From: Gammaproteobacteria bacterium
GTDB taxonomy: Bacteria; Pseudomonadota; Gammaproteobacteria; Steroidobacterales; Woeseiaceae
Reading direction: 5' to 3'
Assembly: GCA_029884455.1 (NCBI GenBank)
Contig: JAOUHU010000010.1
Coordinates: 16,344-80,343 of the forward strand
DNA length: 64,000 nt
Of the stretch, positions 37,101 to 55,415 are shown one piece after another (the stretch's first letter is position 1; every line of letters starts with the position of its first letter). Made by a program: the position numbers and the translations under genes. The notes under the pieces are model-generated. The model saw nothing but the letters and a program-made list of their open reading frames with translations, was not told where the DNA came from and searched no databases.

Positions 37101-39278
37101 TTCTGCCGCTAGCGGCTCTGTCGGCAGCGGCTCTGTCGGTAACGGTATTTCCTTGCCGTCCTCATTCACGACCCATAGCGGCAACGGCTCCGTTTCGTCG
37201 AAGCTGCCGTCTGTGCCATAGGCACGCAACACATACGCAAGCTCGTACAGCGGACCATCGACAACCGCCGGTGGCGGTTGCCAGGTCGCGATCGCGTCCG
37301 CCTCGACAGCCACGACGGCGAGCGGCTGCGCCTCGATCGAGCGTCCTTTTTCGAATACGCGCACTTCAGCCCGCTCGATGAAATGCGCGTAGTTGGTATA
37401 CATGCGGAAACTGACCGGGGATGCCTTCTTGCCGATGAAGAATTCGCCCTGGCCGAATATCGGTCCGGACTCGACATGCGGCGACAGCTCTATAAAGGAT
37501 GGCTCCGCCGCGACACTGAGCCTGGGCGCCGAGCGAAGATTGTCGAAACCAAACTGGATATCGACCTTTTCCAACGCGACGTCGGTGCAGCGCTGGATAT
37601 CGGATGAGCTACGCTTCGGATCATCGATCGGCTTGCCGTCCACGGTGATGCGCATCAGGTTCAGGCCAAGCGGATTGGCCGCCGTTATCTCGCGCGTAAT
37701 GCGCGTGATATCGACACCTTCGTAATCATCGAGGATGGCGAGTTCGTCGTACACCACCTGTACTGCAACATGCGAGGTTTCACCCTGCACGAAACCGACA
37801 TTGATGACGTCTGCGGAATGCACATAGCCATGGCCCTCGAATTCGGCCTGGTTCTCGTCGAGCTGCATTTCGTCGACCAGCAACTGCATCGCTCGCCGCG
37901 CCCGGGATGCCGACAGACCAATGTCGTCTCCATAGACTGTCGCGGTGCGGCGCTCCAGGCGCTCATTGCGCGTGTAGCCAATAAATCGCAACCGCGGATT
38001 CGTCTTGTCAGCGACATCCGCCAGCCCGCGGGCCAGTGTCGCCGCATATCCGGCCGGGATGACCGGCTGCCCGTCCGTGAATTCGATGTTTGAAATTTGC
38101 CCCCAGGGAGGATCATAGACACGCGTCACGATCTCCGCGCCGGCATCTTCCGGGCACAGCTGCGGTTCGTCCGGCAGGTCGGCCAGCGGGTCGTCGTACC
38201 AGAACTCGACTTCGACGCGCCGATTGAGCGCACGCCCGTTGGGCGTCGCACTTGATCCCAGTGGCCGTGTCGCGCCCCGGCCGTCGCTGTCAATCATCTC
38301 GGTCGAAATGTTGAGTTCGTCCTGTACCGCCAGCGCGACGCGACGCGCGCGTGCTTTCGACAGCCCGATGTGATCGCCGTAGATGCGCTCGGTGCGTCCG
38401 AGCAGTGGCGCATCGTCGGTATAGCCGACAAACTTGATCATCACGTTCTGCTTGTCGGCCAGGTTCTGCAGTCCCTGGCGCACGCGCTCGACGAAAACCT
38501 CGTCGACATCGATCGTGTCCTCATCGTAATGCAGCGGTGCGACGAGGTTTTGCAGCCGCGCCCGTTTCGCGTGGCCGTCCACGTAGCGCAGCTTGCAGAC
38601 GGTTTCCATGCGGCAAACCTTGACGCGCTGGATTTCGTGCGGCACGAGGAATTCCTCAAGCGCAACCTTCTCCCGCGGTTCGTCGTACCAGACTTCTACT
38701 TCGACGCGCCGGTTCAGGGCGCGCCCTGCCGCCGTCGCATTGCTCGCCACCGGCCGGGTTTCGCCAAACCATTCGTAGGACACCGCCTCGGGCGGCAAGG
38801 CCAGCACGGTCTGGAAATATTCCGCGACCTCGCCGGCGCGTTCGCGCGACAAGCCGGCGTTATCGCCATAGATTTCTACCAGTCGCGGCGACAACGGCTG
38901 ATTGTCCGCGTGTCCGATCAGGTGCAGGCGTACGTTCAGCCGGTCCTGCATGCGCTCCAGGATGGCACCCAGCGACTCAACCGTCGATGCCGGAATGTCG
39001 GCAACCCCGGACTCAAAGCGTATCGGTGCCACCAGGTTCGCGAGCTTGATTGTTTCCAGCGCATCGTTGACCGTCTCGCGCAGTTCGAGCGTATCGCCTT
39101 GCTCCGCGGCAATGCGGTCGGGATCCTGTACCCACTGGGTGACACCGACGTCAACATCGAGCTGTCGTTCAACGACCTCGCCGAGCGCTTCTTCGGTGAC
39201 ATCCGCAGCGAGTACCGGCGCGGTCGCCAACGAGACCAGCCAGGTCAGCCAATAGCAGGACAAGCGTTTCATGTTCAT
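34131..39278 (-). CDS. Giant outer-membrane protein: three tandem OmpA-like domains, proline-rich linker, C-terminal beta-barrel-like region
   Basis: 1715 aa, signal peptide; three repeats with YGDxxGLSxxRA; two carry GRALNRRVEVE-WYD; alternating strands at C-terminus ending LSLTGTM. Confidence 0.75.
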   Translation of the reverse strand: MNMKRLSCYWLTWLVSLATAPVLAADVTEEALGEVVERQLDVDVGVTQWVQDPDRIAAEQGDTLELRETVNDALETIKLANLVAPIRFESGVADIPASTVESLGAILERMQDRLNVRLHLIGHADNQPLSPRLVEIYGDNAGLSRERAGEVAEYFQTVLALPPEAVSYEWFGETRPVASNATAAGRALNRRVEVEVWYDEPREKVALEEFLVPHEIQRVKVCRMETVCKLRYVDGHAKRARLQNLVAPLHYDEDTIDVDEVFVERVRQGLQNLADKQNVMIKFVGYTDDAPLLGRTERIYGDHIGLSKARARRVALAVQDELNISTEMIDSDGRGATRPLGSSATPNGRALNRRVEVEFWYDDPLADLPDEPQLCPEDAGAEIVTRVYDPPWGQISNIEFTDGQPVIPAGYAATLARGLADVADKTNPRLRFIGYTRNERLERRTATVYGDDIGLSASRARRAMQLLVDEMQLDENQAEFEGHGYVHSADVINVGFVQGETSHVAVQVVYDELAILDDYEGVDITRITREITAANPLGLNLMRITVDGKPIDDPKRSSSDIQRCTDVALEKVDIQFGFDNLRSAPRLSVAAEPSFIELSPHVESGPIFGQGEFFIGKKASPVSFRMYTNYAHFIERAEVRVFEKGRSIEAQPLAVVAVEADAIATWQPPPAVVDGPLYELAYVLRAYGTDGSFDETEPLPLWVVNEDGKEIPLPTEPLPTEPLAAEPPAEPQVHSAYGENRLRMHNIGLSSGTVSVRGSGISEAQQVWVAGRPIPVDISGNFVSEEILPEGAHTVEVAVLDEDGGGELYLRDFEFKPKDWFYVGMADLTLSQGSSNGPIELLQGENSDYDYDSNTDGRLAFFVNGKFGDHWKLTASADTREGSLDSLFSNFMDKSPQAFFRRIDPDYYYPTFGDDGTVAEMAPTMGKLFVRLGKGDDYGQWGNFKIAYMQNELAQVDRGLYGANLHYQSEGATTFGDRRLVANAFAAEPGTIGNREEFRGTGGSLYFLQQQDILAGSESVRIELRDKASGIVTGVVNLTPAMDYDIDYLQGRILLAQPLAATSDDGLLVRSGSVSGDEAYLVVRYEYTPGFGDIEALATGGQLHYWLGDYVKVGVTTNLNEQDDTDSSLNAADVTLRWSAGSWVKLQQAQSEGLVSLATTSVDGGFEFDSYDPASFVDAEAASHRADISVDLGDFVDFTDGKLSVYVQEADAGFSAPGQLALTDTRNYGGALTLPFGSRFSLGAKFDNRTQEQGVDTQAQEYNLGYRFTENWDLKAGYRKDERLDNSIIVPLTQEQGERSDAVLQVGYDSRSTWNTHLFVQDTLSVTGDREENGRVGIGGSYRMSDKLRIDAEVSDGDLGKGGKLGTNYLHSERTSLYLNYALENERTDNAMRIIRGSQGNLVTGVKTRLADSTSVYLEERFQQSESMTGLTHATGVNFVPNVKWRFGFTSDIGTLQDTQTGANTDRLAGGVQVGYNTGSLQFASGIEYRNDEAEQLDLSSNERETWLFRSNFKYQINPAARLLGKLNYSESTSSLGTFYDGGYTEAVLGYAYRPVSNDRLNTLVKYTYFYNVPTTEQIGLQSLATTFIQKSHIAAVDVTYDLTSSVTLGGKYAYRLSQTSLDRENLEFFDNNASLFVLRGDYRFRKNWEVLLEARMLQMADLDERRSGALATLSRYIGDHLKVGLGYNFTDFSDDLTDLSYDHHGVFLSLTGTM

Positions 39279-42200
39279 TCGCTGGCCCTCCGGATCTTCT
39301 CCGGCGGTGCCCCGAGACGCCAGAAAACTTCAGGCTCGATGAGCAGCTCATAGCAGCAGTTCTGCGCTTCCCAGGCCGTCGCGATTTGTTCTTGCAGCGC
39401 GTTGATGCGTTGCGTGACCAGCGACTCCTGCTCGACGTCCGCCACATAGGACAGCCGCAGGATTGCGGGTGCCTTGCGTAATTCGTGCAGCAGCAAGTCG
39501 ATTCGGCCCTGCCACTGGTGCCGCATCTCGGTCGTGCCGGGCTCGAACACGGCGTCGGCGATATCCAGCCCGACGACGCGATAGATCGAGGCGCCGAAGT
39601 TGATGCGCAGCGCCTTGCCGCGGGTCGCGCGCTGCACCTGCACCGGCCGCGTCGAGCTGCGGAAGCCGCTCGGCAAGGTGCGGTCATCGAGCTTCAGCAC
39701 GAAATTGCTGCCGCGGCTCTCGTTCGGCGTTATTGCGCAGGTGATGTGATAGCGGCCGTGCGCATCGGTGCTCGCAGCAAGGCCGCGCGCGGTAATTACG
39801 CGCACACCGGCGAGCCCGTCTTCGTCGCCATCCTGGTAACCGTTGCGGTTGCTGTCGTTGAAAACCTTGCCCGTGACATCGGTGCAGTCGAAGGTCGGGT
39901 CGGGCACGATGCGCACGGTGGCCTCGGCCTCCTCGGACAGCGCCGTGCCCGTAAGCGAACTCATCGCCTGCGCACGGTTGACGAATTCACCCTCGGTTAC
40001 GCCTGCGCCGACGGCCAGCAGCAGCTTGATCGTGTGCCGCCCGTCGACGAGCAGGGTCAGGTTCGACCAGACCAGTTCGCGACCCGCAACCACGGGTTCG
40101 CTCGCCACCCCGTCGAAACGTGCCGAGCCTTCGACGTAGTGGAAACCGGCCGGGTAGCGGTCGACCACGGTAATGTCACTGAGGTTGGCGCCGAAAGAAT
40201 TGCTGATCCGGATTTCGTAGGGCACCAGCTGGCCGCGGGTAACGTTCAGCATCGGCGTGGTCTTGCTGACAGCCACCGCACCACCGAGCCGCGGATCGAG
40301 CGGAATATGGTTGTTGAAAAGCTGGCTGGAACCCGGCACCTGGATATCGTTCAGCCGCAGAAACAGGTGATAGGCCGTGCCCGCACTTTGCGCCGGTACC
40401 GACGTCGGCGGCGCGAATTCGGAAGCTTGCGCCTCGCAATAATTCGGCGTTGCGAGCACTGCATCGTTGCTCGATCCGGGACAGGCCGGTACATCGAACG
40501 GCTGCGTCGTGGCATCCGAGGTCGGCGGTATGAACGCCGAGACGCCGGGCTCGTAGCTCGCATCCGGCGCCTGCACACGCAGCAGGTAGGTCGGGCCAGG
40601 CGCACAGTTCGCGTCCGAGAAATTGAGGTCGAACTTGTAATAGCCGTTGCCGACCGTGACTTGGTCCTGCTGGTTGGGATCATCGAAGCAGCTGCCGGGT
40701 ACCGGCAGGCCATTGCGAACGTCGACCATGGTTACGACGGCACCGGCGATCGGGCCGCGCGTAATGGAGTCGTAAATAACACCGTTCGGATCGACCGGCA
40801 TGTTCAGTGCCAGCAGGTTGCTGCCTTCCTGCACATCGATCTCGTCGATACGTTGCAGGCCGTCGGTAAAATCAGAGTCGGTGACACCCAGTAGCGCAGT
40901 CCGGCTGCCGGCGCCAGGCGCGCTGAAGCGCAGCGAGTAGAGATCCGTGGTGCCATAACTCGGAACCACATTGCTGAACCGGTAGTAACCGTCGACGTCC
41001 GTCAGCATTGCGCGCACCAGCAGATTGTTCTGCAACAGCTCGACGGTCCAGCCCTCAAGCGGCCGTTCCAGCCCGCCTGGCACGTCGTCGTGATCGGCGT
41101 CATGCCAGACGTAACCACTGAGCATGCCGGCATTGGGCATCGCACCGACGTCGATGGAAACGCTCGCCTCGGCAAGCTGCTGCGGGTCGTTCCAGTACAC
41201 ACGTCCGGTGTTGGTGATGGTCGTACCTTCGAGCAGGTTCGGATTGATCACTGCCTGGAAGCGCAGCACCACCGTTTCACCCGGGTTCAGCGCACCGTAC
41301 TGGTTGAAGTAATCGGCCGTGATCGTGGTGGTCGCGGCATCGTAGGTCACGCCGGCGCCCAGGCCATTCAGCGTCGCCGACAGGTCGACATAGGCAAGGT
41401 AGCCCGGATTGACCTCGTCGAGATTGTCGGTCATCGCGACGTAGTAGGCCGGCACGGCCGCGATGTTGGTGGCGGTAACCGTGTATTCGAGTGTCGCACC
41501 CGGAAGTGCCGCGCCACCGCCGACAACCGCAACCGCCTTGACGATGGACAGGGCCTGCGCATCGCCAACGACCACGACGGTCGGTTCGGGACCGGTCGCC
41601 GGATTGCCATCGCCATCGGTCAGCAGATTCGGCCGTTCAACAGAATAGACGGTCGCCTGGTTGATAATAAGAGTGCCGGTAGGCACCGCCGCGTTGACCT
41701 GCATGTCGAACTGCACCAGCGCCGACTGGCCCGGATTCAGCACGCCTGCACCATCGGCCGGCAGTGGCGGCGTGAGGTCGGCCGAGCTGACGGGAATACC
41801 CGCGATCAGCGGGAACACGCCGGCGTCCGGCTGGCCGACCGGCAGGCCATTGAGCGTCACCGAGTCGGCCACGTAGGTGAGGTCATTCGGCACGACGTCG
41901 ACCAGTTCCACCGCGGTCGCGGCTACATTGCCGTTGTTGTAAATCGTGATCGAATAGCGCAACACGTCGCCGGGATCGACAATGCCAGGCGTGCCGAGAT
42001 CGACCTGCAGCGCGGCCGACTTCGGCGCAAACAGCAGCGGATAGTTGCCGACCACGTCGCGCGTCGGATCGTCGGCCAGTGGCGTACGCGGGTCGTCTGA
42101 CGGCACATCGGCAATGCCGTAGTCAACCGCGCTGACAAAAGCCTGGTTCGAAATAATCGTGCCGTCGGGCACGTCCGGATACACGATGACATCGAAAACA

Positions 42201-45200
42201 ATCGTCGCGACGTTATCAGCCACGCCGGCGTTCAAAACTCCCGGCGTTGTGTCCTGCGGTGCGTTCACCAGGATGCCGTTGCCGAGCGGCAGGCTGCCGC
42301 CCGCAGCATCGGGCACGGCGATGCCATTAAGCGTCGTGCTGCCGGCAACGTAGCTGGTGTTGCCGGGCACCTGGTCGACAATCTCCACCCCGGTCGCGTG
42401 GTCGGTACCGATATTCTGTACCGTGATCGTGTAGCGCAGCGTCTCGCCGGCGAGCAGCACGTTTGGATCACCGTCGATATAGGACGATGTCTTTTGTACG
42501 CGGAAGGCGGGTGCCGAGGTGATCCGAACCTGGGTCGGATCCTCGTCGCCCGCAATGTTCGGGTCCGCGGCGCCGTTAACATTCGGGTCGTCGCTGACGG
42601 CCACCGGGTTGCCGTTGTACAGCAGGCTCGACTGGTTATAAACGTAACTGTCGTTGCTGATCACGGGCACCAGCACAATTTCAAACTCGACCAGCACGCT
42701 GTCGCCAAGCGGACCGAGGCTCAGATTGCGCACATCGAGCAGGCCGCTACCGGCTGCACCACCGTTCGGGTCCGTGTTGCCGGCATCCGCCCCGGCCGGC
42801 AGCGTAACGACACTCAGCGTCCCGGCCTGGAACATCGGCAATGTGTTGAGCCGATCGAGTTCATCCACCAGGCTGAAATTGGCGACTGAGCTGGCACTCG
42901 CGTTTTCGACGCGCAAACTGTAGCGCAGCGTGTCGCCCGGGCTCGCAACGCTTGCCGGATTGTCGCCACTGCTGACGTTGGCGACGGTCTTTTCGAAAAT
43001 CAGGATGGGCGTAAATTCAACCACCGTGAGCGCGTCCTCGTGGTCCAGCACGCCGACCGTGCCGTTGGTCACGGCGCGCGTGTAGGTGCGTGCATAACTC
43101 GCGTTGGCGCCCGAAAAAATATCGAGACTGAACCACTCGGTCGCGCCGGCGACATTTGTCAGCACCGCATCCGCCTGTGTATCCGCATCCAGCAGCGTGT
43201 CGTAACTAACGATCAGGCGCTGGTCGGGAGCGATGGCCGCGGCTGCTGTCAGCGCCTGCAAGGTAAATGTACAGGCCGGGTCGCCGAGCCAGCTGACCAC
43301 AAAATCGGTACCCTCGGACAACGGCGGCGCAACTGGGGTCACACCATCGGCCGCGAATAATTGTGCCGTGAAGTTCACCGGCGCCGCATCACAGGTGCCG
43401 CCGTCAGCCTGGTTCGGCAGTCGGTCGGTAATCGTCAGGCCGTGTGCTGCGGACGCACCGATGTTGTGCACGTTCAATGTGAATGTTTCCGCGACACCGA
43501 TGCGCATGTTGACCGGGCCGCCTTTTTCGAGTGTCAGCTCGGGCTCGACCACGGTCATCGGCGCACTGCTGCCGGGCAGGCCGGGTCTCTCGGTCACCGT
43601 GTCGTTGTCGGACAGGTTGTAGCTGTAGGCAGCGCTATTAATGAAAGTCAGGCCAGCAAGGTTGTTGCTGGTATCGGCAAGTCGCAACGTGATTTCGATG
43701 ACTGCCTGCTCGCCGGCCGGGATATCGATGCCATTGACCGGGTCTTCGATCACGAGGTTGTCTGGCGTCCCCGTGTTCACAGGCGTCCAATTACCGGCAG
43801 CCGAGATTTTTGTCACGCTGACGAATTCGAGATCGGCTGCCGAAGCACTGAGATCGTCGAGCAAGCGTACATCGTAGAGCGGTGAGCTGTGCGGCACGGA
43901 AGGCACAGTGACCAGGTAGCTGAATTCTTCGCCAATGGTCGCGGTGGCCTGCGTCGTCGCCTTGATGAGCGCAGTCGGTGGCGGGCCCTCGATGATGATG
44001 CGCGTCGGATCCTCATCGCCGGCGATATTCGGGTCCGCCTGGCCGTTGACGTAGGGATCGTCGCTGTCCGCTATCTTGATACCGCTGACGAGATCGGCCT
44101 GGTTGGTCACCAGGGTGCCATTCGGCAGGGTCGAGTTCAGCGTCACATCGAACTGCACCAGCACTTCGCTCGCCACCGGCAGGCTCAAGTTGCCGATGTC
44201 AAGCACGCCGGCACTGTTGGTACCGCCGTTCGGGTTGGTGCCGGACGTGTCGGCGCCAGGCGGGATCGTTGCGGCGACCAGCGTAAGGGATCCCGGTACA
44301 AACACCGGCACCGGATTCATTGCACCCAGGTCGTCGCGGAAACTGAAATTGGCGAGCGCACCATCCGTTGTCTGCAGGCGCAACGTATAACGCAGCGTAT
44401 CGCCCGGGCCAGCAGTAGTCGTCGGATTGACGCCGGTACTCAGGTTTGCGACGGTCTTTTCGAAGAAGTAGCCGCGCAGTTCGACGACGGTCGTGTGTGC
44501 GTCCTCATGGTCCGCTACGCCAGGTGTGCCGTTGGTCAGCACACGATTGAAAACAACCCGGTCCGTATTGCTGCTGTCGCCGTTAAACCATTGGCTTGCG
44601 CCGACGACGTTGGTGAGCGCGGTGCCGTCCTGGCTGTCCGCATCGAGTCTGGTCCGGTAGTTAATAACCAGGCGTTCATTGGCACCGATCGCCGCCTGCG
44701 CCGTAAGCATGGTCAGCGACAGGCGGCAGGTCGGAGCGCCGGCAAAACTGAAGGTGTAGTCGCTGCCTGCCGCGAGCGGGCCTTTGCCGGGGACCGGCGT
44801 CGTACCGTCCGCTGCAAACACCTGCGCGTCGAGGATTTCCGGGGTCGTATCGCACATGCCCCCTGTGGCGCCATTCGGCAGTTGGTCAAGCAGTGTCACA
44901 TCCCAGGCATCGGTCAGACCGGTGTTGTGAACGTTAATACCGAAGTTGCCCCACTCGCCGAGGTTGAGTGTCCGGCCGATCGTTGCCGGGCCAATCTTGG
45001 TCACTATGAGTTCCGGTGTAGCAATCGTCAGTGGCTCGGAAATACCCCACTCACCTGGCAACGGCTCGTAAAATATTCCTTCGATAAGGCGGCCGAAATC
45101 CCACTTCGCAATATTGATGAACTGGGTGCCGGGCGCGTTCGTCGGCGTGTCCTGCAGAACCACATCCAGCTCGATGATGAACTGTTCGCCGGCCGGGATA

Positions 45201-45898
45201 ATCGGAAAATTGTCGAAAGTCAGAACGCCGCCGACATTCGAAAAGGTGTGCGGTATCGGCGCGCCACTCGTTTCCCAATACGCGCGATAGCCAAGAAAAG
45301 TCAGGTCTACACCCGTTGCATTCAGATCGTCGACGATCGTAATGCCGTGCAGATTATTCACAGAGCCCTGCGTATTGATTACAGTCGTCGTTGCCGGATC
45401 AAACAACACCGGGCTGGTCAGCGACCAGGTAAACGGCACGCCGATCGCAGCGGTGGTCTGGCCGGGCGGATTTTGCTTGTCAATCTTTTCAACCGGAATC
45501 AGCAGGTTCTGGCAATTTGCCTGGATCGTCGATGACGAACCGTTCGTGAACCAGATCTTGTGTTCGAGCACGGCGTTACAGGACATCTGCCCGGTGTGCA
45601 CGACGTTATCGAAAATGATCAGCCAGCGTTCATTGGTTTGCCCGGGCCTCGTGAAAAACGAGAAGTTCGTGGTCAACGGATTGCTGGCCGGAAAATTGCG
45701 CACCGTGCAATTGGTATCGATGTTTATGTTCGACGGCGGATTGGGTGTGACGAAGCCATCGAGCGTAGCGTTTGGAAACGTCGAGCAGTCGGTGGCCTGA
45801 GCGTTCGCCGTGGCCGCCGCGAACAGCAATGTGATCGCAGCCAGCAGGCGCACGCATGTGGTACCCAAGCGGAGATTTCTATTGCTGATAAGACCCAT
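39275..45898 (-). CDS. Giant secreted DUF11-repeat / SdrD-B-like domain protein
   Basis: 2207 aa, signal peptide; repeated GDTLRYTL...NxGxxxAxxVxLxDxLP modules; SGYVWHDADHDDVPGGLERPLEGWTVELLQN; ATGA overlap with 34131-39278. Confidence 0.8.
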   Translation of the reverse strand: MGLISNRNLRLGTTCVRLLAAITLLFAAATANAQATDCSTFPNATLDGFVTPNPPSNINIDTNCTVRNFPASNPLTTNFSFFTRPGQTNERWLIIFDNVVHTGQMSCNAVLEHKIWFTNGSSSTIQANCQNLLIPVEKIDKQNPPGQTTAAIGVPFTWSLTSPVLFDPATTTVINTQGSVNNLHGITIVDDLNATGVDLTFLGYRAYWETSGAPIPHTFSNVGGVLTFDNFPIIPAGEQFIIELDVVLQDTPTNAPGTQFINIAKWDFGRLIEGIFYEPLPGEWGISEPLTIATPELIVTKIGPATIGRTLNLGEWGNFGINVHNTGLTDAWDVTLLDQLPNGATGGMCDTTPEILDAQVFAADGTTPVPGKGPLAAGSDYTFSFAGAPTCRLSLTMLTAQAAIGANERLVINYRTRLDADSQDGTALTNVVGASQWFNGDSSNTDRVVFNRVLTNGTPGVADHEDAHTTVVELRGYFFEKTVANLSTGVNPTTTAGPGDTLRYTLRLQTTDGALANFSFRDDLGAMNPVPVFVPGSLTLVAATIPPGADTSGTNPNGGTNSAGVLDIGNLSLPVASEVLVQFDVTLNSTLPNGTLVTNQADLVSGIKIADSDDPYVNGQADPNIAGDEDPTRIIIEGPPPTALIKATTQATATIGEEFSYLVTVPSVPHSSPLYDVRLLDDLSASAADLEFVSVTKISAAGNWTPVNTGTPDNLVIEDPVNGIDIPAGEQAVIEITLRLADTSNNLAGLTFINSAAYSYNLSDNDTVTERPGLPGSSAPMTVVEPELTLEKGGPVNMRIGVAETFTLNVHNIGASAAHGLTITDRLPNQADGGTCDAAPVNFTAQLFAADGVTPVAPPLSEGTDFVVSWLGDPACTFTLQALTAAAAIAPDQRLIVSYDTLLDADTQADAVLTNVAGATEWFSLDIFSGANASYARTYTRAVTNGTVGVLDHEDALTVVEFTPILIFEKTVANVSSGDNPASVASPGDTLRYSLRVENASASSVANFSLVDELDRLNTLPMFQAGTLSVVTLPAGADAGNTDPNGGAAGSGLLDVRNLSLGPLGDSVLVEFEIVLVPVISNDSYVYNQSSLLYNGNPVAVSDDPNVNGAADPNIAGDEDPTQVRITSAPAFRVQKTSSYIDGDPNVLLAGETLRYTITVQNIGTDHATGVEIVDQVPGNTSYVAGSTTLNGIAVPDAAGGSLPLGNGILVNAPQDTTPGVLNAGVADNVATIVFDVIVYPDVPDGTIISNQAFVSAVDYGIADVPSDDPRTPLADDPTRDVVGNYPLLFAPKSAALQVDLGTPGIVDPGDVLRYSITIYNNGNVAATAVELVDVVPNDLTYVADSVTLNGLPVGQPDAGVFPLIAGIPVSSADLTPPLPADGAGVLNPGQSALVQFDMQVNAAVPTGTLIINQATVYSVERPNLLTDGDGNPATGPEPTVVVVGDAQALSIVKAVAVVGGGAALPGATLEYTVTATNIAAVPAYYVAMTDNLDEVNPGYLAYVDLSATLNGLGAGVTYDAATTTITADYFNQYGALNPGETVVLRFQAVINPNLLEGTTITNTGRVYWNDPQQLAEASVSIDVGAMPNAGMLSGYVWHDADHDDVPGGLERPLEGWTVELLQNNLLVRAMLTDVDGYYRFSNVVPSYGTTDLYSLRFSAPGAGSRTALLGVTDSDFTDGLQRIDEIDVQEGSNLLALNMPVDPNGVIYDSITRGPIAGAVVTMVDVRNGLPVPGSCFDDPNQQDQVTVGNGYYKFDLNFSDANCAPGPTYLLRVQAPDASYEPGVSAFIPPTSDATTQPFDVPACPGSSNDAVLATPNYCEAQASEFAPPTSVPAQSAGTAYHLFLRLNDIQVPGSSQLFNNHIPLDPRLGGAVAVSKTTPMLNVTRGQLVPYEIRISNSFGANLSDITVVDRYPAGFHYVEGSARFDGVASEPVVAGRELVWSNLTLLVDGRHTIKLLLAVGAGVTEGEFVNRAQAMSSLTGTALSEEAEATVRIVPDPTFDCTDVTGKVFNDSNRNGYQDGDEDGLAGVRVITARGLAASTDAHGRYHITCAITPNESRGSNFVLKLDDRTLPSGFRSSTRPVQVQRATRGKALRINFGASIYRVVGLDIADAVFEPGTTEMRHQWQGRIDLLLHELRKAPAILRLSYVADVEQESLVTQRINALQEQIATAWEAQNCCYELLIEPEVFWRLGAPPEKIRRASE

Positions 45899-45945
45899 GC
45901 TCAGTCGCTACTTTCCCTGTGCACCAGGCTCGCGGTTGCATGCGG

Positions 45946-45964
45946 GTCAAAGTCGCACTTTGAC
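45946..45964 (-). promoter_or_regulatory. Hairpin between riboswitch aptamer and start codon (possible expression platform)
   Basis: GTCAAAGT-GCG-ACTTTGAC perfect 8-bp stem on the minus strand; no U-tract. Confidence 0.55.
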
Positions 45965-45969
45965 TCGAG

Positions 45970-46050
45970 CGGTCCCGCTGCCATAAGGCGCCCATCCTTT
46001 TAGGCCGGTGACTTTGCGTCACTGTCTTTCGACAGCTTTGCCTTTGTCAG
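45970..46050 (-). ncRNA. Cyclic di-GMP-I (GEMM) riboswitch aptamer
   Basis: Minus strand GACAAAGGCAAAGCTGTCGAAAGACAGTGACGCAAAGTCACCGGCCTAAAAGGATGGGCGCCTTATGGCAGCGGGACCGC: GAAA tetraloop, ACGCAAAG core, CCTAA receptor, GGcAGCgGG signature. Confidence 0.92.
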
Positions 46051-46269
46051 AATCCAGACAGAACTATCGCTCATCAGCCGTGAGACGTGGGGGACCTGCA
46101 TCACAATTTGTGCGGTCGTTACCCATGCCCCAAACGCTTGGGCAAGACCCCGCCGTTATTGGAACAGGCGCCCGCAGCCGGCGGTGAAACCACCGCCCGG
46201 CAGGCCCTTATGTCAATAAAAATCCGGCCGACGCGGACAGCGTCTGCCTTATGTAACAACGGCTTTGAA

Positions 46270-47673
46270 TCAGGCCGCAGGCAGGAAATCGATCGGATAA
46301 ATAATCGTCACGGCCACGATGTTTTCTTTCGCGCCGAAGTCGAAACTGCGCACGCGATCGACTACCTGGTCCGCGAGCATCGGCGCATCCATGCTGGATG
46401 CATAGAGCTTGCAGAGCGACACGCTGCCATCGGGTTCTATGGTCAACTGCAGCACGAGTTGTCCGCGCAAGGTCGGATCGTTGCGCAGCTCACGGTTATA
46501 CAGCCGATACAAGGCGGCCTTGTAGCGGTCGAACACAATCTGGATTTCCTCGTCTGTGCGCCCAGCCGACGCACCGCTACTCAGCGGCCGATCGGGGCCA
46601 TCGCCGCCGCCAATGTTGCTGGCCACGCGTGAAACGGCAACGCCATCCATGCCACCACCCCCGCCGCCAAAGTCGCGGCTGAAGTCGGCGAGATTGATGC
46701 CGCCACTGCTGCCCGGCGCCGAAGTCGTGACCATCATGCGTTCCGGCCTGCCGGTGGCGTTTTCGCCGGCATTGCTGAGACGCGCCTGGGAACCGAGCTG
46801 TGCCGACGGACGCAGTTCGGCGCGGCTTGCGAAACTGTCGCGAAAGGCGAGCAGACCCTTGGTCTTAACCTGTTCACGCGTATCCGGCTGCTCGGCCTCA
46901 GCCAGCACCGGTTGTTCATCCTGCACCGGAGACGGCTGCGGCTCGGCTTCGGCGACCAGTTCCGGTTCAGGCTCGGGAAGCTCGTCGGGTATTTCCGGCT
47001 CCGGTTGAGTCACGGGAGGCGGTGGTGGTGGCAGGCGCTCCTCGCGCACCAGCCTGGCAACGCGCTCCGGCAACTGGGCATCTTCGGGCCGGTTCATGAT
47101 TGGCACCGCAATAACACTCAGCAGGAAAGCAAATGCCAGCGACGCCGCCAGCGAACTGAGCAGGGACCGATTCAGGCGGCGATCTTCTTCAGCGCCGCGC
47201 GTCCAGGGCATTATCTGCGCGTGGTACGGAATTTCCGGTTCGTCGCGCTCAGGCACCCATTCGCTATTACGATTTTCCTGCTGTTCGATAATGTCCTGCA
47301 GATCGTAATGCAGGTAGTCGAGTTGACTGTTCTGCGCGCCAATTTTTTCAATAATTGACTCGCGCCTGGCTTCGACGCGCTCGATTTCGCGGCCGTATTG
47401 GTCGAACTGATCACGCGCATACTCGATGCGTTCGGCCTGCACCACGCTGCTGCCGTCCTCTTTCCAGAACAGCGCCGCAGCTCCGAGCCGTTCCAGTTCT
47501 TCGAGAGAGGAACAAATTGACGCCAGCAATTCGTAGCGCGGGTGCAGCGCTGCCAGTTGCTCGAGCTCAGCATCGACAGTTCGAAGCTCGCGCTCGAGAG
47601 TATCCAGCGTCCGTTCCGACTGCTCGACTTTCTCTCTTAACGACTGTTCGTGTGCCGATGAATCAGAGCTCAC
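46270..47673 (-). CDS. AgmX/PglI C-terminal (TonB-like) energy transducer with long N-terminal coiled coil
   Basis: 467 aa: coiled coil, single TM SLLSSLAASLAFAFLLSVIAVPI, Pro-rich PPPPPPVTQPEPE, C-terminal LRGQLVLQLTIEPDGSVSLCKLYASS. Confidence 0.8.
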   Translation of the reverse strand: MSSDSSAHEQSLREKVEQSERTLDTLERELRTVDAELEQLAALHPRYELLASICSSLEELERLGAAALFWKEDGSSVVQAERIEYARDQFDQYGREIERVEARRESIIEKIGAQNSQLDYLHYDLQDIIEQQENRNSEWVPERDEPEIPYHAQIMPWTRGAEEDRRLNRSLLSSLAASLAFAFLLSVIAVPIMNRPEDAQLPERVARLVREERLPPPPPPVTQPEPEIPDELPEPEPELVAEAEPQPSPVQDEQPVLAEAEQPDTREQVKTKGLLAFRDSFASRAELRPSAQLGSQARLSNAGENATGRPERMMVTTSAPGSSGGINLADFSRDFGGGGGGMDGVAVSRVASNIGGGDGPDRPLSSGASAGRTDEEIQIVFDRYKAALYRLYNRELRNDPTLRGQLVLQLTIEPDGSVSLCKLYASSMDAPMLADQVVDRVRSFDFGAKENIVAVTIIYPIDFLPAA

Positions 47674-47697: not shown

Positions 47698-48201
47698 TTA
47701 GCGCGCTGCAACCTGTGCCGGTATCTGGATAACGGCGAGCGAGACATTCTCGTAGCCCTCGCCCGTACAGGCCGACATGATTTTCCGGACAACAACAAAT
47801 GGCACTGACTTGTCTGCGAGGATTGTCACCTCCTGGCTTTCCGCAACCGCCATTGTGTTCGGCCCGATTACACTTTCCTTCAAATCAGCGAGCCGTGATG
47901 CAAGCGAATCCATTGTGTTCTGCTTGTCTTCCAATATGTCGGCAACGCGTGCTACAACCTTGCCTTGTACCATGACGTCCTCCGGGCTAACCGAAATGAT
48001 CACGGTTTCGCGCGGTTTCGATTCTTCCCGGGACTCAGGTAGTGACACATCCTTCGGCGCATCCAGCAATTCCACTGATCCGGTATTCACTAGCAGGAAA
48101 AAAACGAGAATCGTGAACACGTCCATCAGCGACGTCAGATTCATTTTTGAAATCTTCAGCCGGTTGCGGGACATACGTTTGATGCGGCGTGTATTTCTCA
48201 T
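47698..48201 (-). CDS. ExbD/TolR-family protein (Asp retained)
   Basis: TM motif MNLTSLMDVFTILVFFLLV. Confidence 0.85.
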   Translation of the reverse strand: MRNTRRIKRMSRNRLKISKMNLTSLMDVFTILVFFLLVNTGSVELLDAPKDVSLPESREESKPRETVIISVSPEDVMVQGKVVARVADILEDKQNTMDSLASRLADLKESVIGPNTMAVAESQEVTILADKSVPFVVVRKIMSACTGEGYENVSLAVIQIPAQVAAR

Positions 48202-48704
48202 GGCGCATCTCCGACGGAAATTTCGGAAAACAGTGCGACCAGTTCGAAGCTCGGCTCACCGTCCAACGGCATTTCGACCGGCCTTTCGACAGCCCGGACA
48301 ATATCCATGACCTGAATCAGGTAATCGTAGGGTATGCGTGCCTCCATTAGCACGGACGCAGCATCCTGCTGCGGATAGGTCTGCTTCAGCTCCACCATGT
48401 AGTCGGACAAGGTCTGTAAATCGTATTCCTCGTCTTTGTTTGGAATCGCGGCGATAACCGACTCGCCGTTTGTAATCTCGATCCGGTTTTCGCGCACGAT
48501 GACTTCCGGTGTAAAACCCTGTTCGCCGTTGGACGGTCCACCGGCCGAACTGGGCAGGTTTAATTCAACAATAGTGAGGCGCGAAAATACGGCTGTAATG
48601 AGCAGGAACGGCACTAGCACCACCATGAGATTGAGGAAGGTGGTGACATCAATTTCGTGCGCGCCGCTCTTGGTGCGCCGCTTGTAATGGTGACGCCGGG
48701 CCAT
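48198..48704 (-). CDS. ExbD/TolR-family protein (Asp replaced by Asn)
   Basis: TM motif EIDVTTFLNLMVVLVPFLLITAVF; ATGA overlap with 47698-48201. Confidence 0.8.
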   Translation of the reverse strand: MARRHHYKRRTKSGAHEIDVTTFLNLMVVLVPFLLITAVFSRLTIVELNLPSSAGGPSNGEQGFTPEVIVRENRIEITNGESVIAAIPNKDEEYDLQTLSDYMVELKQTYPQQDAASVLMEARIPYDYLIQVMDIVRAVERPVEMPLDGEPSFELVALFSEISVGDAP

Positions 48705-48709
48705 TGCGA

Positions 48710-49366
48710 TCAGGCCTCAGCCGCTGACATTCTCTTGGCGCGCCTCGAAAACACGTTCAGGGCTTTGACCGAGGCCATCTCGAGACTGTCAACGATATCG
48801 CCGGTCTTGCTGGTCAGAATCGCGTGCACAATCAAGAGCGGTATTGCGACCATGAGGCCAAACGCCGTAGTGTTCATAGCGACGGAAATACTGGCGGACA
48901 GCAGGTCTGCTTTTTCCGCCGGGTTGGCGTTCGCCACTGCTGTAAACGCCTGGATCAGGCCCATGATCGTACCGAGCAGGCCGAGCAAGGTCGCGATGCT
49001 GGAGGCAAGCGCCACGTAGCCAGTACGCTTTTCCAGGCGCGGTACGATTTCCATCATGCTTTCTTCCATCGCAATTTCGATATCTTCGCGGCGGCGTACG
49101 GCACCCTGCAGCGACAAGCCCATGTTAAGCACTTGTGAAATTGTTGAGTCGTCTTTACTGGTCATCTCGCGTGCAGTGTCGAACTCTCCGTTTGCGAGCA
49201 GTGGCTGCACTTTGTCCCAGATCAGGCGATTCTTGTTGGTCACAAGCGTCAACGTTATGTAGCGCTCTGCCGCAATCGCGACGCCTACTGCGAACACCAG
49301 CAGGATCGGATACATGAACAGGCCACCAGATCCGAAGAAAGCGACAACCGAGTAGAAAAGGTCCAT
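48710..49366 (-). CDS. MotA/TolQ/ExbB proton-channel protein
   Basis: LGLLGTIMGLIQAFTAV...AISVAMNTTAFGLMVAIPLLIVHAIL-type motifs. Confidence 0.92.
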   Translation of the reverse strand: MDLFYSVVAFFGSGGLFMYPILLVFAVGVAIAAERYITLTLVTNKNRLIWDKVQPLLANGEFDTAREMTSKDDSTISQVLNMGLSLQGAVRRREDIEIAMEESMMEIVPRLEKRTGYVALASSIATLLGLLGTIMGLIQAFTAVANANPAEKADLLSASISVAMNTTAFGLMVAIPLLIVHAILTSKTGDIVDSLEMASVKALNVFSRRAKRMSAAEA

Positions 49367-49507
49367 TGGTCTATCCTCAATTTGACAAAATGTCGGGGCT
49401 ATTTCCGCGACGTAGCCAAGAATAGACGCCCATCCCGGGCTTGGATGTGATGCAGTCCACGTTCGGCCATTATGTCCGAGAAAATTGGCCTGCCATCGCG
49501 ACGCGAC

Positions 49508-49810
49508 TCACTCGCCGGAGCGGATTTCGTAATAGTTCAGCTCGCGCAGGAAGACTTCCTTGTCGACCGGTTGCGCACGATCATCGAGCGACTCCGTGAG
49601 GCTGATATCATCGCCGAGTTCCGATGACTTCCACGGTACGATGACCAGTGATTTGGGCGCTTCCTCATTACCGAGAATCGACATGCCGGAAAGCGTCTTT
49701 GGCGAATTGATGCCATCGCCGTCGGCCACCTGTTCCTGAGCAGCAGGTTCCTCGGCCTGCACGCCGCAGCCAAGCAGCAACAGCGCCAGCCCGCCAATCA
49801 GTCTGTTCAT
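49508..49810 (-). CDS. Small exported protein of motor operon
   Basis: Likely start MNRLIGGLALLLLGCGVQAEE (lipobox-like LLGC); ORF extends to 49858. Confidence 0.6.
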   Translation of the reverse strand: MNRLIGGLALLLLGCGVQAEEPAAQEQVADGDGINSPKTLSGMSILGNEEAPKSLVIVPWKSSELGDDISLTESLDDRAQPVDKEVFLRELNYYEIRSGE

Positions 49811-50460
49811 CGCTGCTCCTCCCGCTGATTCAGGCGGTACTGCAGGTCCTTGATCCACATTGACGCCTCGTCATCGCTCGGCACGGTCGTCATGTAAGCC
49901 TGGTAGTTCTGTAAAGCGCAATCGAGGTCCGCAAGATACAGATCGCAGAGCACGGCCAGGTTGCGCCGCGCATAGTGATAACCCGGGTACACGGCGAGTG
50001 CCGCTTCGTAATTGCTCCTGGCTTCTCTGAAACGGCCGGTCTTGCGCAGCACAATGCCGAGCTCATTGTTGGCGATCGGGTGACTGGGATTATTCTCCAG
50101 CGCCAGCCGCAGGTTGCGTTCTGCCTGCACGAGATCGCCTGCGCGGTGGTAAGCAATGCCGAGGTCGATGCGTGGCGCACTGAGCTCTGGTGTTGCGTCG
50201 GCAACCGCTTGCAACAGGCGAATTCCCTCCTGCTGGTTGCCACGCTCGAGCTCGCTCACTGCCTGCTCGTAGTCGAGCCGGGTGTCATCGCCAACCCTGG
50301 CGTCCTCGGTAATCGTGAATCCGATTTGCTCCTGGATTTCAATATGCGCGACAGCCGGTTTCGACCGGGGAACGCTGGACGCACAAGCCGCAATGAAAAA
50401 TGCGCCGACGGACAGCGTTGCCAGGTTGCGCCAGTGAATAATTGCCAGCCTTGTCATCAT
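49807..50460 (-). CDS. TPR lipoprotein
   Basis: SVGAFFIAACASS lipobox; TPRs AYHRAGDLVQAERNLRLALENNPSHPIANNELG. Confidence 0.8.
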   Translation of the reverse strand: MMTRLAIIHWRNLATLSVGAFFIAACASSVPRSKPAVAHIEIQEQIGFTITEDARVGDDTRLDYEQAVSELERGNQQEGIRLLQAVADATPELSAPRIDLGIAYHRAGDLVQAERNLRLALENNPSHPIANNELGIVLRKTGRFREARSNYEAALAVYPGYHYARRNLAVLCDLYLADLDCALQNYQAYMTTVPSDDEASMWIKDLQYRLNQREEQR

Positions 50461-50475: not shown

Positions 50476-53400
50476 CTACTCGACACCGCGTGGCGGTGTC
50501 GTGGAAAGCTGCGCCGTTGCCTCAGGTAAGACTTCCGGCGGTGCGATCGGCATGCGATAGGCGTAACTGTCAATCGACCCCAGGTAGCCGCCGCTGATTT
50601 CATTTTTCGCGTAGCGACCCGGCATGACCAGCGCCAGCTTGTCGAGACTTTTCTGAATCCAGGGATTGAACAAACCACCCGCCAGCAGCTCGAAATTCTT
50701 TTCGTGCACGGCGATGCCTTGTTCTTCGAAGGGATACGCCTCTTCCTCGAGCACCAGGTCGTAGTCGACTTTCTCCGCCGCGCTCAGACCGTCCGGGCGT
50801 TCTGAATTGAGCAGTGCTGTGCTGAAATTAAAATAAACCTCGGCAATGTAATAGGTTGCTGCCGCGGTCACCTCCGCAACCTGGTAATTGACCAGCTCCT
50901 CGAGGTGCGCCATCGCCACATCCATGCGCCGCTGCTTCTCTGCGAGGCTCTGCTCGAACGGCTGCGTGAGCGCCAATCTCGCGAATTCCTGGTACTGCAA
51001 CTCGGCCAGCACCAGCGCTGCCTTGGCGGCCAGATAACGGCTGCGATCGGTACGCTCGGCACCAGCGTCACGATCGACAGACACAATGCCGGCCAGCGCT
51101 TCGTGGTAGCGCTCGTAATCCGATTGTTGCTTGAAAATCTCGGCGAGCCGGGAGCGCGTTTCGAGTGCAACGTCAATGGGTTTTGGATATTCGCTGACGT
51201 ATTGTTCGTAGACGCGAATCGCATCGGCAACCGCTTCCGCCTCGTCATAAAGATCGCCCGCAATCAGTAATGCACTGCGCGCGATCTCGGCATCCGTGGC
51301 TTCCGCAGCGATGCGTTCGTGCTCAGCGGCTGCGCGTTTCGTCTGGCCATCTTCACGATAGACATTCGCGAGCTGCTTGGTCGCCTCGGTCGCCAGTTCG
51401 TGCTCCGGGTGCGAGCTTCTGAATTCTTCCAGCACGTTCGAAGCAAAGGTCCAGTCCTTGAGCCTGATCAACGCCGCGGCGGCGTCGTATTCCGCTGCCG
51501 TACGGATGTTCGAGGTTGGCGCGACTTCCTTGATGCGCAGGAAGTGCTGCGCGGCAAGGCCATAGTCTTCGAGCAGATTTGCCTGCTCACCCTGCTTGTA
51601 GATCGCTGCGGCGAGCCCGTCGACCACGGCAGCACGCTTGTCGTCATCTGCCGGAGTCAGCGACAGGACGTTCGCGTAGGCCTGCTCGGCATCGGTAAAC
51701 TCGTTCAGATCCATCGACGAGTTGGCGACCACGGCCCAGGCCGAGCGCTTGAGCTCCCTGTCGGCGGACGGGTAACGCGCGATGAGTTTTCTCGCCGCAT
51801 CGATCGCCAAAGGCAGATCCTTCATCTCGTAGAGATCGTCTGCCGCGTGACCGAGCACAGTGGCTGCCTGTTCATGCTCCGGGAAGGTATCGGCAAATCG
51901 CAGCGAGCTGTCCACCGTCAGCCGTTTGACATCACGCTGCAACGCACCACTGGCAACCTTGAGATGTTCGCGATGCGAGTAAATGGCCGCATAGCCGGCG
52001 GCGGCTGCCTGTGCATGCGCCGCGTAATTGTAGGCGGTACGCTCATATTCGACCGCCGCTTCACCGAAATTCTCGTTTTCGAGCAGCAGGTCGGCGAGCT
52101 GGTAATTGATCTGCGGCGTTGCACTATCGGCCGGAAACGACCCCAGGTATTGCCGGTACCAGCGTTGTGCCTCGCTGAAATTAGCTGGCCGTTCATCGAC
52201 CAGGGACGCTTCCTGGTACAGGGCATGGTAATGGCCGGCCAGGTCCGTCAGGTTGACCTTCAGGAAGCCAACCACCTCAGGCGATTCAGCCGCATCGAAG
52301 TGGTTCCAGTACTCGGCATCGAGCGCATAGGTAGCCGCAAATTGTTTTTTCGCCTCGACCACGAGTAACGGGAACCCGGCTTCGGCGTATATCTCGACGA
52401 CCCGCATGCCGAAGTGCGGTGATACCTTGTGCAGGGGATTCAACGCGACAAACGATTTGTAAACCGATGCCGCATCTTCATAGCGCAGCTTGCTGAAGTA
52501 GAACTCGCCGAGATTGCCGTAGATTTTGTCCGCGTAGCTGCGCCGCCCATAACGCGCAAAATAGTCGTCGACCACCTCCGGTCCGCCGAGATTGGAGAAA
52601 CTCAGACTGATAACGCGGAACGTATCGGCGAGCCGGTGTTCGTCATCCTCCTGCTCAACTTCGTCAAAGTCATAGCCGATTGACAGCCGGTAATCGAGCA
52701 TCGCAATGAATTGGCGCAGGCCCTCCTCGTAGAGTTCCTGCTTGTACAGCGACCAGCCCAGTTTGTAGAGCGCAAGCTCATGATAGCTCGAGGTCGGCCC
52801 CAACCTGATAACCGCAGCATAGGCATCTTCGGCGTTGAGGTATTGCCGGCGTACAAAATAGTACTCGCCGCGCCGGAAATGGACTTCATCCAGATGTTTC
52901 GAATACGGACTCGTACTGATCAGGCGGTCCATGACCTGCATGGCCTGATCCGGCTCGCCTATCTCGTCATAGGCGCGCGATAACTGGTAAAGCACCTGGT
53001 CGTTACGCTCGTAATTTGGATAGCTCTCAAGAATCTGCCAGTACATCTTGATCGCTTCACGCGGCCCCGCCGGTGCCGTAACGACTTCGCCGCCCGGCAA
53101 CGGTGCCGCAAAGTCGTCCGCATTGGACAGCAGGCGCTCGCGCGCAGTGGCGCGGGCCTCGAATTCCTGTTCCGATTCCGTCGACCCGGGTTGCTGCGTA
53201 TTGCTCTTCTCCGCGAGTATGCGCCCACCCGTCGTTGCCGCTTCCGGGGCAGCCATTTCGACAATCGCACCGTTGCCAATCACACCGTAGGCCTGCTCGA
53301 GCTGCAGGTCCGCCAGTCGTCGCATGGCCTCGGGCGTCATGCCGCTCTCACTGGTCTCGTCAAGATACCGGCGGTAACTTTCTGCGGCGCGTTCAAGACT

Positions 53401-53535
53401 GTCCGCAACGTAAATTTCATCAATATCGGCCGGCACCGCATCAAGCTCGGCAAGCGTGCCCGAGCGATCACCGCCGCTGGCGCAGCCGAACAATCCGGCA
53501 CTGCAAAGCAACAATCCGATGCAATTGCGCCTCAT
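50476..53535 (-). CDS. Large TPR outer-envelope lipoprotein
   Basis: 1019 aa; lipobox LLLCSAGLFGCASG; many TPR-like helices. Confidence 0.8.
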   Translation of the reverse strand: MRRNCIGLLLCSAGLFGCASGGDRSGTLAELDAVPADIDEIYVADSLERAAESYRRYLDETSESGMTPEAMRRLADLQLEQAYGVIGNGAIVEMAAPEAATTGGRILAEKSNTQQPGSTESEQEFEARATARERLLSNADDFAAPLPGGEVVTAPAGPREAIKMYWQILESYPNYERNDQVLYQLSRAYDEIGEPDQAMQVMDRLISTSPYSKHLDEVHFRRGEYYFVRRQYLNAEDAYAAVIRLGPTSSYHELALYKLGWSLYKQELYEEGLRQFIAMLDYRLSIGYDFDEVEQEDDEHRLADTFRVISLSFSNLGGPEVVDDYFARYGRRSYADKIYGNLGEFYFSKLRYEDAASVYKSFVALNPLHKVSPHFGMRVVEIYAEAGFPLLVVEAKKQFAATYALDAEYWNHFDAAESPEVVGFLKVNLTDLAGHYHALYQEASLVDERPANFSEAQRWYRQYLGSFPADSATPQINYQLADLLLENENFGEAAVEYERTAYNYAAHAQAAAAGYAAIYSHREHLKVASGALQRDVKRLTVDSSLRFADTFPEHEQAATVLGHAADDLYEMKDLPLAIDAARKLIARYPSADRELKRSAWAVVANSSMDLNEFTDAEQAYANVLSLTPADDDKRAAVVDGLAAAIYKQGEQANLLEDYGLAAQHFLRIKEVAPTSNIRTAAEYDAAAALIRLKDWTFASNVLEEFRSSHPEHELATEATKQLANVYREDGQTKRAAAEHERIAAEATDAEIARSALLIAGDLYDEAEAVADAIRVYEQYVSEYPKPIDVALETRSRLAEIFKQQSDYERYHEALAGIVSVDRDAGAERTDRSRYLAAKAALVLAELQYQEFARLALTQPFEQSLAEKQRRMDVAMAHLEELVNYQVAEVTAAATYYIAEVYFNFSTALLNSERPDGLSAAEKVDYDLVLEEEAYPFEEQGIAVHEKNFELLAGGLFNPWIQKSLDKLALVMPGRYAKNEISGGYLGSIDSYAYRMPIAPPEVLPEATAQLSTTPPRGVE

Positions 53536-55415
53536 GGCTCAAGACTCCTTGCCTGCGCCTGCGTCGCACGGTCATAACTGTCAGCCAGCGCGAAGCGCGC
53601 CTTGTCACCATAGCGCTCCAGCCGCGACCGCCGTGCCACCAGTTCCTCAACAGCAACGAGCTCCAGCAGGTGTCCCTGGCGTGCCATCAAGATCTGTATC
53701 ACCTGCGTTGCCTCGGCAACCTTGCTGCGCAGTACCCGGATTGGCATTTCGTAACCGTTATAACTGTGCTCGGCCGCCTGGCGCGTGCGCACATACTCGT
53801 CGTATTTCTGTTGCGCCACTGCCATGGCTGCATCTAGTTCACGGAGATTCTGATCGAAGCGCGTCAGGCGCTCGTGGTATTCGGTCTGCAGCGTCCAGAA
53901 CAGCAGACCCTTGAGGCGGGCGACGCGTTGCAAAGTGGACGGCGCAGCGCCCGAAGGCGAAGCCTGCAACTGTTCTTCAATAAGCTCGAGGCGCGCAAGG
54001 ATCTGTTGCTCCTCGCGAGTCGCAAGGAATTCGGGCCGCGGCGTGGTCAACAGGTCATCACGCTTTTTCACCAGCATCTTGTGCTGCTCAACACGCAGCC
54101 GCATGCGCGAGTCGAATTCACGGAACTCGCTGTCTACCTCTGGCAATAGCGGCTCGTAATGATCGTGGCGAATCGCAACCATTTCGTCATAGGCATCGAA
54201 ATCGGTTTGCCAGCTTTTCAGCTTGCGCTGCAGGTCCGCGAGATCGAGGTAATTCTGCAGGCCCGCCTGGAAATCGTGCGAAGCGAGCAATTCCATCAGG
54301 TAGTAGGTTTCGGGCGCGTTTTCCAGCGAGCGCAGCCGAATGACCCAGTTTTTGTCCTGGCGGATCTCTTCGCGAATCAACGCCTCGAGAAACGCGCCGT
54401 CGCGAATGCTGTCGATCGACAGGTTGAGCTTGTCGATCTCGACCCCGTAGGCGTCCAGTGCATGCCCGTAGGAGATCGCCGCACGACCGTGGACATTGAG
54501 TTCGCCGTAGGCATACGGCAGTGCCAGCAGTGCCTCCTGTGTGCCGCTATCTGTAACTTCACGCCCGGCGAGGATGCTCCACGGAACGACCGCCCGTTCG
54601 GCTCGCCCAAGTGACATGTTTGCCCAGCCCGAGCTAAGCAGCGCCTGGTTGGAAAACGGTCCGTCAAGGCGCACGCGGTTCAGGTATGGTATCGCCGCAT
54701 CCAATTTGCCTTCTTCGAGCAACAGGGTGCCGAGCACCAGGTTGGACTTGTCGACGATCGCCAGGTCGGCCGGGTCTGCGCTTGTAATGCGTCCGGCCTT
54801 GTCGAGCTGCTCGATGGCCTGTTGTTGCCGGCCATCCTGCAAGTAGGCGATACCGAGGTTGTAACTGGCGAACGCACCAAAACCATCGGATTTCTCGAGC
54901 TTGCCCAGCACTTGCGCAGCATCAGCGGGCCGGCCCTGCGCGAGATAAATGTTGGCCCGCAAAAACTCGATGTCGTCGCGGATCGACGCCGGCACTTCGC
55001 CGTCGATGCGATCGAGAGCGCGCAACGCATCGTCGGCCTGGCTCTTCTGAAAGTGAATCCGCGCCAGGCGGTATGCGGCGTCGTTGCGCACCACTTCATC
55101 GACGGCGCCCTCGAGGACAGCCGTGATGGCCCTGCCCGCGCGGTGGTGCATGCGGTAACGAAGCTCGAAGTCGCCGAGCGAGAATTCTGCATCGTTGATG
55201 TAGGCGTACAGCGTGTCGAGCTGCGGCTCGTCAATGTTGCCATGCTGCCTGACTTCGCTGTCGAGCCGTTGCAATGCTTCGAAGTATTGCCCCTGGTGCG
55301 CGTAATACAGCGCCTCGCCGAAGTAGAGGTCCTTCAGCTCAGCGGCAAAACCAGGGCTTGTTGCCAGACCAGCAAGCAGCAGGAGCCCGGTTCCGGAGAA
55401 CGGTGCTCGACCCAT
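53532..55415 (-). CDS. Exported TPR/coiled-coil protein
   Basis: 627 aa; signal peptide; LGIAYLQDGRQQQAIEQLDKA; ATGA overlap with 50476-53535. Confidence 0.78.
   Translation of the reverse strand: MGRAPFSGTGLLLLAGLATSPGFAAELKDLYFGEALYYAHQGQYFEALQRLDSEVRQHGNIDEPQLDTLYAYINDAEFSLGDFELRYRMHHRAGRAITAVLEGAVDEVVRNDAAYRLARIHFQKSQADDALRALDRIDGEVPASIRDDIEFLRANIYLAQGRPADAAQVLGKLEKSDGFGAFASYNLGIAYLQDGRQQQAIEQLDKAGRITSADPADLAIVDKSNLVLGTLLLEEGKLDAAIPYLNRVRLDGPFSNQALLSSGWANMSLGRAERAVVPWSILAGREVTDSGTQEALLALPYAYGELNVHGRAAISYGHALDAYGVEIDKLNLSIDSIRDGAFLEALIREEIRQDKNWVIRLRSLENAPETYYLMELLASHDFQAGLQNYLDLADLQRKLKSWQTDFDAYDEMVAIRHDHYEPLLPEVDSEFREFDSRMRLRVEQHKMLVKKRDDLLTTPRPEFLATREEQQILARLELIEEQLQASPSGAAPSTLQRVARLKGLLFWTLQTEYHERLTRFDQNLRELDAAMAVAQQKYDEYVRTRQAAEHSYNGYEMPIRVLRSKVAEATQVIQILMARQGHLLELVAVEELVARRSRLERYGDKARFALADSYDRATQAQARSLEP

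Follow-up and report, generated by a model that had tools for sequence, protein, structure and literature searches.

Which cellular system would be controlled by a c-di-GMP-I riboswitch that stands in front of a giant surface-protein gene, and in what manner? We examined this in a 64,000-nucleotide stretch of Woeseiaceae DNA (hereafter the window) and in related loci from other genomes. The initial annotation had proposed a GEMM-I aptamer on the minus strand at 45970-46050, about 70 nt upstream of the start (45898) of a gene encoding a 2207-aa DUF11 protein. A cmscan search with RF01051, the check suggested there, returned a full-length match (model positions 1-87 of 87, E 2.4e-12) above the gathering threshold and within 5 nt of the proposed position (Table 1), and the measured distance from the aptamer 3' end to the ATG at 45898 was 66 nt. 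The GAAA tetraloop hairpin, the GACGCAAAG core and the GGCCUAAAAGG receptor were all present as quoted in that annotation. Our own covariance model R1, which included the window copy in its training set, gave the aptamer 82.6 bits. Within an alignment of 33 aptamers from the window genome and its relatives, two-sided changes were observed in 15 of the 22 pairs of the P2/P3 helices, and 94% of the paired cells were able to pair, compared with 31-46% in controls with a slid partner strand. These compensatory changes across relatives indicate selection on the aptamer.

Table 1. Features of the window, listed from 5' to 3' on the minus strand.
Feature	Position	Strand	Basis or remark
176-aa conserved secreted protein, first core-cluster gene	55419..55949	-	no family; conserved in cluster
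GltC-like TPR protein	53532..55415	-	NF033756 29 bits, below cut-off; other TPR models similar
GltD-like large TPR lipoprotein	50476..53535	-	profile matches collinear Myxococcota GltD ORF, 5e-29
GltE-like TPR lipoprotein	49807..50460	-	TPR; NF033758 GltE 36 bits, below cut-off
100-aa secreted protein between gltE-like and exbB-like genes	49508..49810	-	tblastn matches in 22/89 scanned loci
CRP-like operator before exbB-like gene	49444..49463	-	best PWM match in window, 24.6 bits
-10-like TATTCT of motor unit	49419..49424	-	box-to-hexamer 45 nt in 10/10 loci
ExbB/TolQ-like motor (AglR-like)	48710..49366	-	PF01618
ExbD/TolR-like stator 1 (AglQ/AglS-like)	48198..48704	-	PF02472
ExbD/TolR-like stator 2 (AglQ/AglS-like)	47698..48201	-	PF02472
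GltG/PglI-like TonB-type force transducer	46270..47673	-	NF033768 AgmX/PglI C-terminal domain 55.3 bits, cut-off 40
Terminator-like hairpin and T-run after gltG-like gene	46222..46238	-	consensus match only; 0.5 expected by chance
CRP/Vfr-like operator ATTGTGATGCAGGTCCCCCA, weak right half	46088..46107	-	upstream of aptamer; PWM rank 2 in window
-10-like hexamer GATAGT	46063..46068	-	start inferred few nt downstream, at aptamer 5' edge
c-di-GMP-I (GEMM-I) riboswitch aptamer	45965..46052	-	RF01051 72.7 bits, gathering 35
Possible switch: aptamer 3' GCGGG (45974-45978) versus CCCGC (45942-45946)	45942..45978	-	encloses hairpin GTCAAAGT/ACTTTGAC
2207-aa secreted DUF11/SdrD_B-repeat giant	39275..45898	-	PF01345 132 bits, PF17210, TIGR01451, TIGR04226
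1715-aa protein, N-terminal OmpA-type peptidoglycan-binding domains, large C-terminal beta-barrel (predicted, fold-class level)	34131..39278	-	PF00691, two passing stretches

The expected ligand of the window aptamer is c-di-GMP. The base preceding the 'GC' of P2 (by our own mapping, Vc2 position 20) is a G, already taken to favour c-di-GMP over cGAMP, and the same base was observed in all 20 intact DUF11-linked RF01051-type aptamers inspected. An A20G change makes a cGAMP switch respond to c-di-GMP instead (PMC6456294), so that a G here points to c-di-GMP, with the position-20 base acting as a selectivity factor and not as a hard filter (PMC9262584). Some GEMM-Ib members, those of Geobacter, do sense cGAMP (PMC6456294), but none of the intact DUF11-linked aptamers carries the A, and together with the A20G result this makes it highly improbable that the window copy senses 3',3'-cGAMP instead. 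One c-di-GMP-I aptamer with an A at the selectivity position was observed at another locus (L008, contig G015:C21, 1501-1587 on the minus strand) and is a possible cGAMP-type switch.

A total of four c-di-GMP-I aptamers were found in the window genome (3.33 Mb in 151 contigs, 88.9% complete), and 35 of 40 relatives' genomes carried the class. The best-scoring aptamer of the window genome (L001, contig C139, 9505-9590, 84.9 bits) precedes a 310-aa M23-type peptidase-like protein just upstream of a secA-like ORF, both assigned by eye. As one of four in its genome, and with the class common among relatives, the window RNA is an ordinary class member: like others of RF01051 it is full length and above threshold, lies 5' of a surface-protein gene and has G at the selectivity position. 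By itself it is unsurprising; its genomic setting is less ordinary.

Downstream of the aptamer, the two ORFs 39275-45898 and 34131-39278 share an ATGA, confirming the 4-nt overlap reported for them. Riboswitch control of both genes, which had been suggested from this overlap, is supported insofar as the aptamer lies in the 5' leader of the two-gene, 11.8-kb unit. The AlphaFold model of the C-terminal region of the 1715-aa protein was rich in long strands at low confidence (pLDDT 64). Its Foldseek matches were outer-membrane barrels, with PDB matches at TM near 0.2, and because of these two values the structure matches speak to the fold class only; we assign this region, with low confidence, as a predicted outer-membrane beta-barrel at the level of fold class. 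Homologues of the 1715-aa protein were observed in 27 of the 40 relatives (the weakest sharing no more than a part of the barrel) and in 80 kept loci, with Acidobacteria, Desulfuromonadales, Gallionellales, Alcanivorax, Microbulbifer and Myxococcota among the titles. The nearest titled sequence relatives were mostly MAGs of Woeseiaceae and other Gammaproteobacteria.

The genes upstream of the riboswitch appear to match a stand-alone Agl/Glt core complex. This complex (gltC, gltD, gltE, gltG, aglR, aglQ and aglS) was described as the ancestral portion of the Myxococcus gliding apparatus; Luciano et al. 2011 (PMC3169522) found it in Gammaproteobacteria and Geobacter as a cluster with one extra gene and without known function. 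The window likewise combines gltC/D/E/G-like and aglR/Q/S-like genes, together with additional conserved ones, in a single cluster, but differs from the published complex in that a riboswitch-led DUF11 and OmpA-barrel module follows. The motor set comprises one TolQ and two TolR homologues beside the gltG-like gene. Profiles of the GltG-like and GltE-like proteins matched, respectively, Myxococcota GltG (1e-12) and a collinear ORF near GltG in Myxococcota (E about 1e-18). The full-length GltG model NF033760 gave 31 bits for a cut-off of 650, a cut-off below which true Myxococcota homologues also fall. Because the TPR similarity is partly generic and the GltC score lies below its cut-off, we name these genes only Agl/Glt-like. 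Both the 100-aa and the 176-aa proteins are candidates for the additional core gene described by Luciano et al.; the 22 loci with the 100-aa protein span several phyla, and tblastn gave no match to it in the two gltG loci of Myxococcota that were scanned.

In Woeseiaceae and Acidobacteria, core genes stand directly beside the DUF11/barrel pair. Desulfuromonadales have the DUF11 gene first, followed by the barrel gene and then the core, and in Microbulbifer and Alcanivorax (one locus each) the core is found immediately past the DUF11 gene. An independent surface system that neighbours a gliding-type core by chance is unlikely given this adjacency across the lineages named, in two different gene orders, and given the promoter design that both units have in common in Woeseiaceae, although a second core cluster in the window genome (contig C130, L193, 886-9963) lacks both the pair and an aptamer, as such independence would allow. 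We read the pair as a surface module that, as judged from gene neighbourhoods, is linked to an Agl/Glt-type core in many lineages. The term 'surface or adhesion system' given to the pair in the initial annotation fits the module as regards a surface location, adhesion being a possibility, and is too narrow with respect to this link.

A conserved CRP-like promoter, absent from the initial annotation, is predicted just 5' of the aptamer. Woeseiaceae loci show a GATAGT/CATAGT hexamer 5' of the aptamer and a CRP/Vfr-like TGTGATGCAGTTCACC further upstream, with ATAGT occupying the -10 place in nearly all of these loci but in just 0.5% of 40-nt windows of background sequence. The distance from box start to -10 end was 45 nt in 21 of 23 DUF11 promoters and 46 nt in 2, and this spacing stays fixed while the distance from hexamer to aptamer varies. 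The same box and spacing were observed in three loci that have no aptamer and lay outside the PWM/motif set (L073, L077 and L160). The window site has two mismatches to a TGTGA-N6-TCACA-like CRP consensus, and since the bare consensus with two mismatches was commoner in shuffles than in the window, we used only comparative evidence for the box, with a PWM built from 19 sites of other (sister) loci. No -35/-10 pair was found in a sigma-70 consensus scan, as expected for an activator-dependent promoter. This geometry would put the centre of the box at about -41.5, the placement known from class II CRP promoters, and transcription would begin at the aptamer 5' edge. Such a promoter would speak against a transcription start downstream of the aptamer, a case that the initial annotation had raised against its own reading.

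A similar arrangement precedes the motor genes, where a CRP-like box and a TANTCT hexamer were observed 95-103 nt before the exbB-like gene in 10 of 10 loci examined. Together with the terminator-like hairpin after the gltG-like gene, the twin promoters make the motor and the surface module look like two units, with the riboswitch on the second (surface) unit only. A CRP/Vfr orthologue encoded in the genome scores 265 bits against E. coli CRP and 210 against the Clp-type structure 3iwz, and the genome has 19 GGDEF matches. In combination with the CRP-like promoter and the aptamer, these suggest two-messenger control of the surface module.

To follow the aptamer across relatives we used 31 resolved loci, defined as those having a long DUF11 ORF with at least 300 nt in front of it. 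An aptamer was observed directly before the DUF11 gene in 16 of these and a decayed one in two (L076, L143), and in the remaining 13 no aptamer was found at this place. Additional copies turned up in the genomes of relatives, a part of them being identical records. Aptamers were carried by Woeseiaceae-type loci, by two loci of Acidobacteria (L107, L110) and by a single Desulfuromonadales MAG (L095). In the latter, tandem aptamers (878-956 and 1106-1184) precede the homologous DUF11 gene despite a different gene order, and belong to c-di-GMP-I-UAU (RF03168), which resembles the window case in its position and differs in being a sister aptamer subclass. Each of these two aptamers is followed by a terminator-like hairpin with a U-run, and control in L095 is therefore probably transcriptional. 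No other Rfam riboswitch was found in the loci without a good aptamer (L073, L076, L077, L090, L106 and L143). The DUF11/barrel pair also occurs in Microbulbifer, Alcanivorax, Gallionellales and Myxococcota with no aptamer found, and as many relatives share this state the aptamer seems inessential to the system. One further locus (L156, G018:C175) contains a second CRP box and aptamer just after the barrel gene (positions 7203-7291 and 19231-19319), resembling a tandem duplication of the riboswitch-DUF11 unit. The decayed aptamers, seen in three relatives, and the retention of the CRP-like promoter without an aptamer in L073 and L077 would fit a decaying relic with all regulation by CRP. The window copy, however, is full length with its binding-site bases kept, and the compensatory changes described above show selection among the relatives' aptamers, so that we hold the relic reading to be improbable and retain a functional riboswitch as the preferred one.

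How the riboswitch would act on expression was examined in the leader. No intrinsic terminator was found after the aptamer in the window, and the candidate considered for this role, the hairpin GTCAAAGT/ACTTTGAC, was rejected as it has no U-run; translational control is probable for this reason. The 3' part of the aptamer (GCGGG) could pair, around a strong hairpin, with a CCCGC located 18 nt downstream; for the window this duplex has an energy of -11.1 kcal/mol, with z -2.2 and p 0.05. Similar pairing is possible in many loci, weakly beyond chance (combined z -2.45 over 19 loci for aptamer-to-leader pairing), and we regard this switching helix as suggestive only. Folding with the aptamer free versus enforced gave no consistent change in start-codon accessibility across loci. 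We lean slightly towards an OFF switch acting on translation. Many known c-di-GMP-I targets are adhesins, and an ON switch, in which c-di-GMP raises DUF11/OmpA-barrel production so that an adhesin is made on attachment, would agree with this and with the window leader fold, where the start region was slightly more open with the aptamer enforced (0.55 vs 0.38). In most other loci, however, the start region was equally or less open with the aptamer enforced, and in several loci, the window among them, the aptamer GCGGG can pair with an element that precedes the start; neither argument is a strong one. Activation by c-di-GMP is a possibility to which we give somewhat less than even weight, and repression at translation is the reading that we slightly prefer.

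The combination of both messengers has a precedent in gbpA of V. cholerae, which has both cAMP-CRP control and the Vc1 c-di-GMP-I leader (PMC4545359). The window resembles gbpA in the succession of a CRP-driven promoter, a c-di-GMP-I leader and a surface-attachment gene, but the protein is unrelated and the window CRP box is a prediction only; inhibition of gbpA by c-di-GMP was independent of Vc1 (PMC4545359). We found no paper joining a riboswitch to DUF11 proteins (with or without the OmpA-barrel partner) or to the Glt core in a search that was thin on subscription journals, which makes this weak evidence of novelty. The RNA class is known; what is informative is its position before a surface module linked to an Agl/Glt-like core.

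We propose a model in which a CRP/Vfr-type activator would drive transcription from the class-II-like promoter, starting at the aptamer 5' edge, with the twin promoter driving the motor genes exbB-exbD-exbD-gltG. The c-di-GMP-I riboswitch in the 5' leader of the separately transcribed two-gene unit would control production of the surface module, and c-di-GMP would decide, most likely at translation, whether this module is made. We consider the model as a whole, a CRP-type promoter and a c-di-GMP riboswitch controlling the surface module of an Agl/Glt-type core, to be probable. More tentatively, and with more doubt than confidence, the proton-driven core machine may present, export or move the giant DUF11 protein with the OmpA-anchored barrel, and Woeseiaceae, a group abundant in marine sediments, may use c-di-GMP (through the riboswitch) and cAMP-CRP (through the twin promoters) jointly to time the surface module, so that a cell could keep its motor prepared while supplying or holding back the surface component.

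The position of the riboswitch would tie c-di-GMP to the surface module of a homologue of the Myxococcus gliding motor that is spread over several phyla. It would also give an initial hint at how this widely distributed envelope machinery, described as lacking a known function outside Myxobacteria (PMC3169522), is regulated. The DUF11 and OmpA-barrel pair would be its probable outer portion, and the two messengers would form a testable circuit.
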